A DNA stretch of 24,207 nt from a virus. Below the pieces are notes generated by a model. That model worked only from the letters and a program-made list of their open reading frames with translations, made no database searches and was not told the origin of the DNA. The DNA lies in the IMG/VR virus record IMGVR_UViG_3300009596_000004, positions 1-24,207 of that record. One strand, written 5' to 3'. The position numbers and the translations under genes are program-made. Every line of letters starts with the position of its first letter. The stretch's first letter is position 1. Positions 4,730 to 21,552 of this stretch are shown piece by piece.

Positions 4730-5719
4730 ATGTTGATAGAAAAAATAGCTCAAATTAAAAAGGGTGGGGTTATTCCAGTTCACACCAATAGGGCCTCTAC
4801 GATAGGCCATGATTGTTTAAGATACTTGGTTTATGAACGAACCTTATGGCAGGTTAAGCCTCCTATATCTTTTGAACTACAGTGCCGGTTTGATGTTGGG
4901 AAAGCTCTTGAAAAACAGACTATCATTGATTTACAACAGGCTGGATTTGATGTGGTTATGCAACAACAAAGCTACTATTTGAAGGAATACGAGTTAAGCG
5001 GGAAAATTGATGGAAAAATAATTGTTGATGGGAAAACTTATATAATCGAAATCAAATCAGTAGATCCGTATCATTTCCATAAATTCCGCTCCCCTAATGA
5101 TTTGCTGGCTTCTGATCGGTTTTATTATCGAGGGTGGTATCACCAGTTGAACATGTATCTTCATATGGCTTATGCGGAGAACGAGAAGATTGAAGGAGGG
5201 ATTCTTTTGTTAAGAGGATTAGATGGGAAATGGAAGGAAGTTTTTATGAGTTATGATCCTGAAAGGGCAAAAGAGATTCTGAACAAATGCTTAGTTATTA
5301 ACGAATATGTTAAAAAAGAAGAGGTTCCAGAGCCTATTTTTAAAACGCATCCCGAAATGTTAAAAATGTGCTTGAATTGCGAGTATAAGGCCTTTTGTCT
5401 GAGGGAAACGACTGGCTTTGAACAAGTAATTTTTGAAGATGCAAATCAAGAAATTATCGAGAAAATTCGCCGCTTGAAGGAATTAGAGGTTTATAAAAAC
5501 GAATATGAAGCTTTAGAAGAGGAGATTAAAACAACTTTCAAGCCTAATAAGGAATTGATGAAAGAAATGTTGAGTAAAAACCAAGATTTTAAGGCTTTTA
5601 TGGTTGGGGAATATATGGTTAAAGTAAAGCTTTATTGGCAAACAAGGTATGATATCCCTGATGAAATAAAGAGGGAATATGCTAAAAAAGAGCCTGCGTG
5701 TAAGATAACGATTGAATAA
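4730..5719 (+). CDS. PD-(D/E)XK nuclease, Cas4/RecB-like, with Fe-S-type cysteines
   Basis: A 329-aa RecB-family exonuclease-like protein, expected to process DNA ends in phage recombination or replication. Visible motifs are GKALEKQ with E61, the catalytic Asp in SGKIDGK (D94), the EIK motif in YIIEIKS (E107, K109), and the QxxxY motif in HQLNMYL (Q139, Y143). One cysteine near the N-terminus (C29) and three after the nuclease core (C214, C217, C223 in CLNCEYKAFC) are placed as in Cas4 and AddB, where they hold a 4Fe-4S cluster. The C-terminal 100 residues are helical and lysine-rich. A strong AAAGGAGG SD precedes the ATG, two bases after the RHH gene. There is no CRISPR array or other cas gene nearby, so a phage recombination role is more likely than adaptation. 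Confidence 0.85.
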   Translation: MLIEKIAQIKKGGVIPVHTNRASTIGHDCLRYLVYERTLWQVKPPISFELQCRFDVGKALEKQTIIDLQQAGFDVVMQQQSYYLKEYELSGKIDGKIIVDGKTYIIEIKSVDPYHFHKFRSPNDLLASDRFYYRGWYHQLNMYLHMAYAENEKIEGGILLLRGLDGKWKEVFMSYDPERAKEILNKCLVINEYVKKEEVPEPIFKTHPEMLKMCLNCEYKAFCLRETTGFEQVIFEDANQEIIEKIRRLKELEVYKNEYEALEEEIKTTFKPNKELMKEMLSKNQDFKAFMVGEYMVKVKLYWQTRYDIPDEIKREYAKKEPACKITIE

Positions 5720-8654: not shown

Positions 8655-8854
8655 ATTGGTAAATAGCTGATCAATAAAAATCCTAAAGAACAAATCATTG
8701 CCATCCAACTTTGAGATAACATGGCTTGATAGAAAAGATAACCGCTTAAACACGTGGCAAAAACATATAAAATACTTTTAACGTTCCCAAGTATCCCCAA
8801 AATTATCCCTAAAGCAAAATTGTTCGTCTGCTTCTTCTCTTTAGCTTCTTTCAT
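8639..8854 (-). CDS. Small membrane protein, possible second holin
   Basis: A 71-aa protein with a lysine-rich N-terminus (KEAKEKK), a hydrophobic stretch from about 13 to 43 and another from 48 to 66, and a basic end (WKRG). The architecture is that of a small phage holin or other inner-membrane protein. T7 has its holin (gene 17.5, of similar size) at the same place, between the internal virion genes and the terminase genes. The start is well supported: AAAGGAGG lies six bases upstream, and the ATG overlaps the preceding stop as ATGA. A second holin-like gene lies next to the lysozyme, so this one may have another role. Confidence 0.65.
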   Translation of the reverse strand: MKEAKEKKQTNNFALGIILGILGNVKSILYVFATCLSGYLFYQAMLSQSWMAMICSLGFLLISYLPIWKRG

Positions 8855-9264
8855 TTAGACCTCCTTTGAAGTTTTTGTAAAATATCCTCTAAAGTCAAAG
8901 TTTTTACTGCTCCTTCTACCGTATCTCCTTCAGATTCTTCAAATTCCTCCTCTTCATCTTCTTCAAATTCTTCCTCCTCTCCGTTCGTCTCCTCTTCTTC
9001 CTCGTCTTCCTCATCACTATTCGTTTGCTCAGGCTTTTCAGGAAGGAACAACTCTTCTAAGTCTTCTTCGTCTTCTTCCCACTCCGAGGTAGTTCCAGCA
9101 ATCAGGTTAAGTTCTCCAGCGGTTTTGATAGCTTTTCTAAACTCACTCATTAACTTAAGCCCTTGTTCAATTTGCCCTTCTTTAAAAGCATCACGGGCTA
9201 ATTCTAAAATTTCACTGGCTAATTCTTTTAAAGCTTCAGTTAAATCCCTCCAGGTCTGAGCCAT
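8851..9264 (-). CDS. Highly acidic protein with Glu/Asp-rich stretch (137 aa)
   Basis: The first 55 residues form an amphipathic helical region (DLTEALKELASEILELARDA). Residues 62 to about 117 are almost entirely Glu and Asp with a few Ser, Thr, Asn and Phe (EEDEEEEETNGEEEEFEEDE), and the end is a short basic helix (EDILQKLQRRSK). No family is recognised. Such acidic domains occur in DNA mimics, scaffolding proteins and factors that bind basic proteins. Here the location between the large ejection protein and the terminase suggests a virion-assembly or packaging role, by inference. Strong SD (AGGAGGTG) upstream; the extended -10 promoter at 9283-9288 lies just before it. Confidence 0.7.
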   Translation of the reverse strand: MAQTWRDLTEALKELASEILELARDAFKEGQIEQGLKLMSEFRKAIKTAGELNLIAGTTSEWEEDEEDLEELFLPEKPEQTNSDEEDEEEEETNGEEEEFEEDEEEEFEESEGDTVEGAVKTLTLEDILQKLQRRSK

Positions 9265-19014: not shown

Positions 19015-20103
19015 TTAACCAATAGAAGGTACTCCCTTAATGATAAAGTGAGCCCTGGGCCTATCAGTGTAAAGCTGACCGGTTATCAATGCTAAAGCAC
19101 TCCAAGCCAATTTGCCAGCAACCTGCTTGTTTACCCATTCCGTAATATAGTATTCAATCGGAGAAGCTCCGGTGAAGAAAATGTGGTCCAGGTTAATAAA
19201 GTAAATATCACCATAATAGGAATTACTTACTTGGTAATTGCTCAAATAAGGATCAGGGAATATAGCTATTCCGCCTATATCTATACCTCTAATGTTGTAT
19301 TCCCTGACCTCAGCTATACTCCTCAGGTCGCCAACCATATACCTTTCAATAGACACGAAGCTTTCAGCAATTTTTGTAAAAGTCATAGTATCAGTAAAGG
19401 CAACAGCCGGCATACCGTAAATGTTTCCATAATCTTTCCAGTATTTATTTATCCCACGGTTAATTACCGCATAAATAGGCAAGTTCTCATTACCAGCTAA
19501 GTCTGAATAATTAAACACAGGAGAATTCCACCATGGATACGTTGAGCGGCTAAGTCCACCAAAAGTAGGCTGGTTAACACCGTTATCAATTACATCTTTA
19601 ATTCCGTAAAATTTCTGATCGTTGGTTCCTCGAGTTCCCATCAAATCAGTTTGTAACCCTAAAAACAACTGCCTAACTGCTTCTTCGATTTTTAGCTGAA
19701 CGGTATCAATGATGTTAAGCGGGCTTTCCATAATCAAACCTTCAAAGAACTGAACTTCAAAAGTCTGATAGAGACCAGAAGGAGTAAACTTAGCATATTG
19801 AACATCTACGTAGTAATCTTGCTCAGTAAATTGACCAGTTGTGAAGTTCATATATCGTGGTTGCATGTTAGCTTGGTTAGAAGAATCAGGCCCGCCATAC
19901 ACAGGGAACATCACAAAATCATGTTGGAATGGTTGGCTATCCTGTTTTTCTAAAATTAACTTTAAAAGCGCCGAAACTTTAGGAAGGTTTTGGGCCAAGG
20001 CGTACATTAAAATATTACGCCTTGTAACATTTAACCACCTTGTTAAGGTGGCTGAATCTCTAAAACCTCCACCAATATCAGTTATATATGGGGTAATAGG
20101 CAT
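19015..20103 (-). CDS. Major capsid protein (HK97-fold type)
   Basis: A 362-aa shell protein, of the length usual for HK97-fold capsid proteins. The N-arm (TPYITDIGGGFRDSATLTRW) is followed by a long helix, beta-rich segments with the E-loop (QYAKFTPSGLYQTFEVQFFE), a spine helix (IIDTVQLKIEEAVRQLFLGL), GIKDVIDNGVNQPTFGGLSR and a WW, features seen in many phage capsid proteins. A strand region with P-domain character and AIFPDPYL lies toward the end. The next gene upstream is scaffold-like, as expected. I choose ATG at 20103, seven bases after GGAGGT; a GTG at 20112 would sit almost on the SD. The hairpin at 18970-18999 follows. The call rests on pattern, length and position. Confidence 0.8.
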   Translation of the reverse strand: MPITPYITDIGGGFRDSATLTRWLNVTRRNILMYALAQNLPKVSALLKLILEKQDSQPFQHDFVMFPVYGGPDSSNQANMQPRYMNFTTGQFTEQDYYVDVQYAKFTPSGLYQTFEVQFFEGLIMESPLNIIDTVQLKIEEAVRQLFLGLQTDLMGTRGTNDQKFYGIKDVIDNGVNQPTFGGLSRSTYPWWNSPVFNYSDLAGNENLPIYAVINRGINKYWKDYGNIYGMPAVAFTDTMTFTKIAESFVSIERYMVGDLRSIAEVREYNIRGIDIGGIAIFPDPYLSNYQVSNSYYGDIYFINLDHIFFTGASPIEYYITEWVNKQVAGKLAWSALALITGQLYTDRPRAHFIIKGVPSIG

Positions 20104-20126
20104 CTCTTCCACCTCCTCCTAAAAAT

Positions 20127-20645
20127 TTATTTGGCAATAGCTTTATATAATTCTAAAAGATCTTGTTTTAAGTTGTCACGTCCTTCTATGCCTGAATACC
20201 TGCTTATCAAATCCTTCTCCCGTTTTGTAACTGGTTTGCCTACCATCATGTTTTTTAGCTCCATCTGTTTCTGAGCATAAAACGCACAAGCCGTTTCCCA
20301 TTTCGTAATTCCTGCCTCCTTAGCCAATTGTTCGACCTCAGCCAATTTTTCTCTTGGTATTCCGTACCTATCCATTATTTCATAGGCTTTTTGTAATTTT
20401 TTCTCGTTCTCTAAAGTCTTTAATTTAGTCTCAAGCTCTATCGCTTTTTCATCAAGCTTTTCTATCTTTTTGTTTACCTTTTCCTCTACCCGCTTTTTAT
20501 CCTTAGGCTCAGGGATGTAATAATCGATATTATATTGCTGAAGTAACTGATTCACCTTTTCACGCCACTCGTCATCATACTGGATTTCTTCTAACAACTT
20601 TTCAAAAACCTTCATTAACTCTTTAGGTATTTCGTTCCTTTCCAT
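20127..20645 (-). CDS. Putative scaffolding protein (172 aa)
   Basis: Highly charged and helical, with a coiled-coil segment at about 53-92 (KVNKKIEKLDEKAIELETKL and following), an N-terminal helix (PKELMKVFEKLLEEIQY), and a helical C-terminus that includes a basic stretch (PVTKREKDLISRY). Scaffolding proteins of short-tailed phages are of this type and lie immediately before the capsid gene, as here. No protease domain is seen. The SD is AGAGGAG, eight bases before the ATG. Confidence 0.65.
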   Translation of the reverse strand: MERNEIPKELMKVFEKLLEEIQYDDEWREKVNQLLQQYNIDYYIPEPKDKKRVEEKVNKKIEKLDEKAIELETKLKTLENEKKLQKAYEIMDRYGIPREKLAEVEQLAKEAGITKWETACAFYAQKQMELKNMMVGKPVTKREKDLISRYSGIEGRDNLKQDLLELYKAIAK

Positions 20646-20886: not shown

Positions 20887-21330
20887 TTAAATCTCCATTC
20901 CCTCTAAAACTTCAGTTTCTTCTTCTTCAGGAAGAGCAACAGTAGGCGGCGCTTCCGTAGTTGCCGGCGTAGCCGTAGGTGATGGCGCCGGTGGTGTTGG
21001 CGATGGTATCGTTGTTCCTGGTCCCGCTACCATTCCCATAATATTTTGCGCTTTTAACAAAGCTTCATTTACATCTATAGCCTTTCCAACACGTTTCATT
21101 ATATCAAGCGCAACATCATTATAATCATCATAAGGCGGAGTAGTAGCTACCGCTTGAGCAAGTACATAAATCAACGCCAAAGCTCCCTCTTTCATAACTT
21201 CTAACCCCTCAGGAGCAGGCCCAGATAAATTAGCCCGTAACACCTCTGGTGATACCGGCCCTGCCTCCAAAGGAGGAGGTATCGTTCCGCTTAACCCCAA
21301 AGTTTTTAATATGTCATTTTTCACATCCAC
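20887..21330 (-). CDS. Hypothetical protein with Pro/Thr-rich linker (147 aa)
   Basis: First full-sized gene after the leader at 21347-21519. An N-terminal part (LKTLGLSGTIPPPLEAGPVS) is followed by a helical domain (GLEVMKEGALALIYVLAQAV; VALDIMKRVGKAIDVNEALL), then a low-complexity Pro/Thr/Ala linker around 105-130 (TIPSPTPPAPSPTATPATTE) and an acidic tail (LPEEEETEVLEGMEI). No family is recognised. Operon position, ahead of the scaffold and capsid genes, suggests a head-assembly or minor virion protein. SD AAGGAGG, in close proximity to the 3' arm of the inverted repeat. Confidence 0.6.
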   Translation of the reverse strand: MDVKNDILKTLGLSGTIPPPLEAGPVSPEVLRANLSGPAPEGLEVMKEGALALIYVLAQAVATTPPYDDYNDVALDIMKRVGKAIDVNEALLKAQNIMGMVAGPGTTIPSPTPPAPSPTATPATTEAPPTVALPEEEETEVLEGMEI

Positions 21331-21346
21331 CCTCTACCTCCTTAAT

Positions 21347-21364
21347 TAGTGGGGAGACATCTGA
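21347..21364. repeat. Inverted repeat arm (distal in the transcript)
   Basis: TAGTGGGGAGACATCTGA on the + strand; pairs at 17 of 18 positions with the arm at 21502-21519. In the minus-strand transcript this arm reads UCAGAUGUCUCCCCACUA, contains an anti-SD-like UCUCCCC, and lies a few bases upstream of the SD of the 147-aa gene. Confidence 0.8.
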
Positions 21365-21400
21365 CTTTTAAAATATTTAAAAAATAGTTTTAAAATTTAG

Positions 21401-21448
21401 TTATTTCCTGGCCTTTTTTCTCACAGTCCTCTTTTTACGCCTCGCCAT
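21401..21448 (-). CDS. Tiny basic peptide ORF (15 aa)
   Basis: ATG at 21448 after AAAGGAGG; product MARRKKRTVRKKARK, eleven of fifteen residues Lys or Arg. The stop of the 16-aa leader ORF upstream overlaps this gene's SD (AGGAGGTAA), so the two are probably coupled. It lies inside the loop of the inverted repeat. It could be a leader peptide or a protamine-like basic peptide; only the SD, start and composition support it. Confidence 0.45.
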   Translation of the reverse strand: MARRKKRTVRKKARK

Positions 21449-21451
21449 GGC

Positions 21452-21502
21452 TTACCTCCTTTTATGGTTTTTGTTTTGTTTGAAAATTTGTTTAACCCTC
21501 AT
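21452..21502 (-). CDS. Leader peptide ORF (16 aa)
   Basis: ATG at 21502 with GGGGAGG six bases upstream; product MRVKQIFKQNKNHKRR. Its SD and the A of its start codon lie in the inverted-repeat arm at 21502-21519, so pairing with the other arm would hide them. The predicted transcription start is only about 16 bases upstream. The stop overlaps the SD of the 15-aa ORF. Best seen as a regulatory leader peptide; expression is not proven. Confidence 0.45.
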   Translation of the reverse strand: MRVKQIFKQNKNHKRR

Positions 21503-21519
21503 CAGATGCCTCCCCACTA
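21502..21519. repeat. Inverted repeat arm (proximal in the transcript)
   Basis: TCAGATGCCTCCCCACTA on the + strand, the partner of 21347-21364. In the transcript it reads UAGUGGGGAGGCAUCUGA, which includes the SD of the 16-aa leader ORF, and starts about where transcription from the promoter at 21525-21552 would begin. Confidence 0.8.
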
Positions 21520-21524
21520 TTATT

Positions 21525-21552
21525 AGTATAACCAACTTTCAAAACATTTCAA
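21525..21552 (-). promoter_or_regulatory. Sigma70-type promoter of the structural operon
   Basis: On the minus strand TTGAAA (21547-21552), a 16-base spacer and TATACT (21525-21530). Expected transcription start is near 21518. It lies between the lysozyme gene and the leader, so the head and tail genes downstream can be driven separately from the lysis group. Confidence 0.6.

Follow-up and report, generated by a model that had tools for sequence, protein, structure and literature searches.

What does an inverted repeat do when it brackets tiny basic open reading frames (ORFs) just ahead of the structural genes of a phage? We addressed this question at positions 21,347 to 21,552 of the IMG/VR virus record IMGVR_UViG_3300009596_000004, whose 24,207 nucleotides (nt) are hereafter called the window; all features of the leader are on its minus strand. 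A sequence-only reading of this DNA had described a promoter, an inverted repeat, two ORFs of 16 and 15 amino acids (aa), here ORF1 and ORF2, and the Shine-Dalgarno (SD) sequence of a 147-aa gene, with the expected transcript start at the edge of one repeat arm. These positions were confirmed on re-reading (Table 1), and the promoter does predict a start at or near the 5' arm. The leader had also rightly been placed at the head of the capsid operon, since the major capsid protein (MCP) gene is found downstream in the same direction. Comparison with related phages now indicates that the arms form a conserved long-range stem, very probably at the RNA level, and that ORF2 is a conserved gene for a polybasic peptide.

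A conserved long-range stem in the leader

The two arms of the window are complementary at 17 of 18 positions (94%), the sole exception being a G.U pair. The inverted repeat is single in the window, and shuffled sequences give an expectation of 0 at ≤3 mismatches. The leader RNA has a predicted folding energy of -48.1 kcal/mol (z = -3.36), and its best long-range helix scores 44, as against a shuffle mean of 18 and a shuffle maximum of 32.5.

Searches at the protein level, for which the 147-aa gene, the capsid protein and alignments of each served as queries, identified six further contigs of the same clade (L002, L004, L008, L009, L010 and L101), L002 being one contig that is also present as L003, L007 and L021. 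An additional scan with the capsid alignment added zero contigs to this window clade, a nucleotide search of phage records with the window gave no match, exact copies of the arms were sought in IMG/VR and none was found, and scans of host genomes for the window clade returned nothing. All seven leaders have the same order of elements, namely a sigma70-type promoter, the 5' arm, a tiny basic ORF, the 3' arm and the SD of the 147-aa gene homologue; in the six relatives the promoter was recognised by inspection, at the same place as that of the window. The arms are 14-19 nt long and enclose a loop of about 130-190 nt, with 44-68 nt from the first arm to the ATG of the tiny ORF, 20-36 nt from its stop to the second arm and 3-9 nt from there to the SD. 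In the window itself, 5 nt separate the end of the 3' arm from the SD (GGAGG) of the 147-aa gene.

When each of the seven leaders was searched alone, the top long-range helix was always the stem between these arms (score 38-46, shuffle means 18-20), and it exceeded the maximum of 200 shuffles in six cases. As an alignment of whole leaders by MAFFT put the arms wrongly, they were aligned separately. In the resulting alignment, 95.7% of the cells are paired, a percentage to which the selection of the arms for pairing itself contributes; the evidential weight lies with double changes at one orthologous place. Both sides have changed in 9 of the 14 pairs, and 22 double-changed cells were observed, compared with a mean of 7.4 in shuffles and 0-5 in slid registers. 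Two of the checks proposed in the sequence-only reading, RNA folding and covariation in related phages, came out in favour of pairing arms. The long-range stem is real. Several imperfect positions across the leaders are G.U pairs, and this recurrence argues that it very probably functions as RNA rather than as a DNA palindrome. The 5' arm starts 6-10 nt past the -10 box in six of the seven leaders, which gives a conserved duplex of at least about 14 bp at the mRNA 5' end, with the transcript start read from the promoter alone.

A polybasic gene in the loop

The window ORF2, MARRKKRTVRKKARK, encodes 15 aa with 67% Lys and Arg (K/R). Its counterparts are MARRKKRATRKKSRK in L002, MARRTRRKKRTTKRTKRAKRS in L004, MARRKRKKTRKAGRKAGRRKKRTTA in L008, MARRKRRKKRTSRKKKR in L009, MARRKRRTKKRTSRKKKR in L010 and MARRKRRAKKRGSRKKKR in L101. 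The K/R content of these relatives is constant at 60-76%, while the sequence and the length (15-25 aa) drift, as is expected of a polycation. By these comparisons and those with the freshwater phages described below, the 15-aa ORF is a conserved, coding and previously unannotated gene. Literature searches, whose coverage was incomplete, found no report of such peptides. In L004, positions 60-210 hold another small basic-tailed frame that looks conserved and is broken by one in-frame TGA, which may reflect a sequencing error, a mutation or recoding.

As for the 16-aa ORF1, it is probably not a conserved gene. In the window its SD, GGGGAGG, lies inside the 5' arm, its final codons AGG AGG form part of the SD of ORF2 and are directly followed by its TAA stop, and the two ORFs, if both are counted, are 3 nt apart. 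No equivalent was found in L008; L002 has an unrelated GTG-started frame, L004 a 17-aa ATG frame of unlike sequence and L009 a frame of 9 codons, and the frames of L010 and L101 run into ORF2. Of the two leader ORFs initially described, the second is therefore kept across the seven leaders and the first is not.

Because the tiny ORF is at least 20 nt away from both arms, ribosomes translating it should leave the stem closed, and the structure thus looks static. The distances suggest that the tiny ORF can be translated while the stem is closed.

Tandem tiny genes and a pseudoknot in freshwater phages

The capsid protein of the window has distant relatives in the spring phages MW202825.1 and MW202753.1. 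In each of these phages the matching position, behind the portal gene, is occupied by two tiny basic ORFs that lack annotation. At positions 4740-5038 of MW202753.1 (L102), the annotated minus-strand ORFs UOF81572 and UOF81573 overlie the plus-strand tiny ORFs and are probably spurious. A tblastn search with the freshwater portal recognised none in the window (1-24207) or in L021; the portal gene of the window clade may have diverged strongly or be situated beyond the fragment.

The window terminase led to 79 more distant contigs. Under strict criteria (ATG start, SD, 10-30 aa and ≥55% K/R), 47 tiny ORFs were counted in 24 kb of gaps between the portal gene and the next gene, versus 2 in 1.6 Mb elsewhere, and both of the latter come from contigs that end early, where they occupy the same place. 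At least one strict tiny ORF is present in 29 of 46 complete intervals, and 7 more have a looser one such as MYARKMMRGRKTRR or MFQRKMLRRSRPSRR, for a total of about 36 of 46. The freshwater genes encode 12-14 residues and are often in tandem, with a single tiny ORF at some loci. In the second, 13-aa gene (tiny2), codon positions 1, 2 and 3 show 50, 80 and 231 differences, and many changes are synonymous; the excess at third positions and the synonymous changes argue that the tiny ORFs are coding. IMG/VR was also scanned for the codons of RKxRKGRKxRK followed by a stop, position not being used. Among the matches listed, all 118 are stand-alone ORFs of 12-13 aa (at least 118 loci), the same upstream RNA signature is found in 117 of 118 and the first tiny ORF in 102 of 118. 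Homology of the window ORF to the freshwater ones is suggested by position, size and composition, to which the case is limited because the sequences are too short for a statistical test.

The RNA between the tandem freshwater ORFs forms a predicted H-type pseudoknot, in which AGGG pairs with CCCU and the loop UGGCUGC with a downstream GUGGCCG. Twenty sequences display 23 double-changed cells compared with 6.5 in shuffles. Among 81 distinct inter-ORF sequences, 76 of them scorable, the two outer pairs are CG in 63 and AU in 11, and CG in 54 and UA in 19, with 1 mismatch each. Rfam was searched at gathering scores and at E≤10; no credible match to the pseudoknot was obtained (L034; L005 and L006 at gathering scores), and the window leader gave chance-level matches only. 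The pseudoknot, which is absent from the window clade, is a candidate for a new phage RNA family.

Just past tiny2, L057 and L006 have in common an inverted repeat, GGGGGAGGG...TCCCCC. Immediately after it comes a promoter-like site (TTGACA), with the next structural gene behind that site; the repeat could be an operator or a leader element. A terminator past tiny2 was initially read in freshwater phages and was then unsupported by a scan of the coding strand. Among phages with distant capsids (Mx8, Mx9, TM7 and phages of Microcystis, Stenotrophomonas and Bradyrhizobium), no comparable tiny ORF was found before the capsid gene. Scans of host genomes for the freshwater clade returned metagenome-assembled genome (MAG) contigs of mixed taxa. 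Among four MAG contigs that encode a freshwater-type capsid, the module is present in two (L103 and L104), and their beta-proteobacterial labels are a weak hint at the host of that clade.

A proposed role for the leader

The comparisons establish, at the level of sequence, the pairing, the conserved coding ORF and the geometry of the leader, a statement that does not extend to transcription and translation themselves. It is tempting to speculate on how these elements operate together. The segment would be the 5' leader of a late capsid operon, with the sigma70 promoter starting the mRNA at the 5' arm. By pairing with the stretch immediately 5' to the site where ribosomes bind for the first large structural gene, the first 14-19 nt of the mRNA would then close a loop that houses a stand-alone micro-gene for a polybasic peptide of 15-25 residues. 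The stem might be a static 5' clamp against 5'-end-dependent decay of the polycistronic mRNA, or it might mark a site of double-strand processing. In either case it would leave both the micro-gene and the start site of the capsid operon translatable. The peptide, produced beside the capsid proteins, might bind nucleic acid as a polycation similar to protamines or adenovirus Mu, in DNA packaging or head assembly. We give this model as a whole, a micro-gene for a nucleic-acid-binding late peptide on a 5'-clamped capsid mRNA, a probability of about 45%.

Several observations weigh against it. The window clade consists of only seven leaders, whose arms were picked because they pair, and in L008 the 5' arm begins about 20 nt past the -10 box, so that the 5' end may not fully close there. 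Some distant freshwater relatives have no tiny ORFs, which are thus not essential to that capsid type. In addition, freshwater peptides keep specific residues (MYKxxKRGRKTRR; RKGRKxRK), a pattern more in keeping with recognition of one particular RNA or DNA than with a bulk polycation. In the window clade, where the sequence drifts and the charge is constant, a bulk polycation of the adenovirus Mu type would fit; the fixed residues of the freshwater clade would fit a specific RNA-binding role.

More tentatively, these loci may represent an overlooked and widespread class of tailed-phage genes, in which stand-alone polybasic genes of 12-25 codons lie just before the capsid genes under dedicated RNA structures, either the 5' clamp or the H-type pseudoknot absent from Rfam, and encode the smallest known packaged DNA-condensing (or capsid-RNA-binding) phage proteins. 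Genes of 12-15 codons are below the usual cut-off of gene callers, and one deposited genome has antisense ORFs annotated over its two tiny genes. Should the peptides prove to be packaged or to bind RNA, an entire group of phages would have a structural or regulatory component that has not been looked for. Their strict conservation makes the peptides directly testable, and the two RNA structures are independent elements backed by covariation.

Alternative explanations

The peptide might instead be a regulator similar to the N or Tat arginine-rich-motif (ARM) peptides. By binding a phage RNA, perhaps the stem of its own leader or the pseudoknot, it would set transcription or translation of the late operon. 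Its size and K/R content match those of ARM peptides, structured RNA is found at the tiny gene in both clades, and the freshwater peptides flank a covarying pseudoknot (117 of 118 among the matches listed) and conserve G, Y and T residues. However, the peptide is polybasic in both clades although their RNA elements are unlike, one having a pseudoknot and the other a long stem; some freshwater loci have a single tiny ORF, and no common boxB-like hairpin was seen. On balance, we consider a regulator of this type somewhat unlikely. If the stem were mainly an RNase III-type processing unit that cuts the small peptide mRNA off the capsid mRNA, conserved pairing despite variable sequence would be expected, and a 14-19 bp duplex around some 130-190 nt at a 5' end does resemble the processing stems of rRNA and T7 mRNA. 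Yet for efficient cutting the stem is on the short side, and the purine/pyrimidine bias of the arms would be left unexplained, which makes processing as the main role unlikely. The sequence-only reading had proposed a translation-controlled switch, in which the 5' arm acts as an anti-anti-SD and translation of the leader lets the 3' arm fold onto the structural SD and shut the operon. In every one of the seven leaders the 3' arm is indeed rich in C and U and next to the SD, and removal of the 5' arm in silico lowers the predicted opening of the SD in six of them at 37 °C, strongly so in L004 (from 0.82 to 0.01). Nevertheless, ORF1, through which the switch was meant to operate, is not conserved, the conserved ORF2, 20 nt or more from both arms, is probably too far away for its ribosomes to open the stem, the hairpin between 3' arm and SD is significant in none of the seven leaders (fraction of shuffled arms giving one as strong, 0.10-0.79), and deletion of both arms leaves SD opening broadly similar. 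On these grounds the switch is unsupported and appears quite unlikely.

The composition of the tiny ORFs also brings attenuation to mind, since short ORFs rich in two amino acids before an operon resemble the leader peptides of biosynthetic operons; their Lys and Arg codons would sense charged tRNA and thereby control the downstream genes. We found no terminator-like hairpin in the window leader, though, and the coding-strand scan found no terminator past tiny2 in the freshwater clade, where L006 has its TTGACA promoter-like site. Synonymous codon switching and conserved residues other than K/R point to a function of the peptide itself, and attenuation is accordingly very unlikely. Finally, near-perfect inverted repeats of 15-19 bp about 130-190 nt apart could be the ends of a mobile-element remnant, as had also been suggested. 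This notion deserves hardly any credence, as the seven contigs all keep the element at one orthologous position with arm sequences that differ yet covary and tolerate G.U, and no further copy exists in the window, nor an exact one in IMG/VR.

Comparison with known systems

Adenovirus Mu is a basic peptide of 19 aa, present in 100-300 copies per virion, in which its presence is proven, and cut by a protease from a precursor (PMC7998265). Like Mu (protein X) and protamines, the phage peptides are very short, extremely rich in Lys and Arg and encoded with structural proteins; more than half of the window peptide is K/R. Unlike Mu, each is encoded by a gene of its own of 12-25 codons in a tailed phage and is a predicted product, and maturation from a precursor is not seen, the ORFs being stand-alone in 118 of 118 cases among the matches listed. 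The DNA-binding protein J of microviruses is likewise small, basic and encoded among capsid genes, but it is longer, binds single-stranded DNA and goes with unrelated capsids. The base-paired 5' end of a polycistronic structural mRNA recalls the stabilising 5' stems and RNase III sites known from phage T7 and from bacterial mRNAs, from which the present stem differs in being long-range and enclosing a coding micro-gene.

The N/ARM peptides of lambda-type phages are short arginine-rich segments that act with structured RNA (PMC11480772). The phage peptides differ from N in being stand-alone at 12-25 aa, in tandem in the freshwater phages, and late rather than early; a conserved boxB/nut-like hairpin was sought near the tiny gene and not found, as the clades share no hairpin and have no Rfam match at gathering scores. 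In the downstream-peptide (glutamine-II) motif, too, a structured RNA stands directly before a short ORF that lacks annotation (PMC2864571), although the freshwater pseudoknot and the window leader do not match Rfam and the hosts and sequences are different.

Features of the locus

Table 1. Coordinates of the leader elements and capsid operon genes of the window, and of one freshwater pseudoknot
Feature	Position	Strand	Remarks
Sigma70-type promoter, TTGAAA-16-TATACT	21525..21552	-	10/12 sigma70 match; TATACT at 21530-21525, TTGAAA 16 nt upstream
Long-range stem, 5' arm (18 nt)	21502..21519	-	begins 6 nt past the -10 box, at about mRNA +1
ORF1, 16 aa, MRVKQIFKQNKNHKRR	21452..21502	-	not kept in close relatives
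SD of ORF2, AAGGAGG	21455..21461	-	
ORF2, tiny polybasic gene, 15 aa, MARRKKRTVRKKARK	21401..21448	-	conserved, coding by comparison
Long-range stem, 3' arm (18 nt), UCAGAUGUCUCCCCACUA	21347..21364	-	
SD of the 147-aa gene (first large gene of the structural operon), AAGGAGG	21337..21343	-	
147-aa protein, first large gene of the capsid operon	20887..21330	-	no Pfam or PHROG match
172-aa protein, putative scaffold (named by position only)	20127..20645	-	profile-homologous to the gene before the freshwater MCP, E 6e-6
MCP	19015..20112	-	PHROG 9953, E 7e-13; against freshwater MCPs, E 2e-13
Pseudoknot example	L034:6343-6413		80 other distinct inter-ORF sequences likewise

A profile comparison between the 147-aa gene and the 162-aa gene of the freshwater phages was not significant, and their proposed equivalence is therefore one of gene order only. 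Elsewhere in the window, positions 8851-9264 near the terminase encode a strongly acidic protein of 137 aa with long Glu/Asp runs, in which a shifted frame yields spurious basic ORFs.
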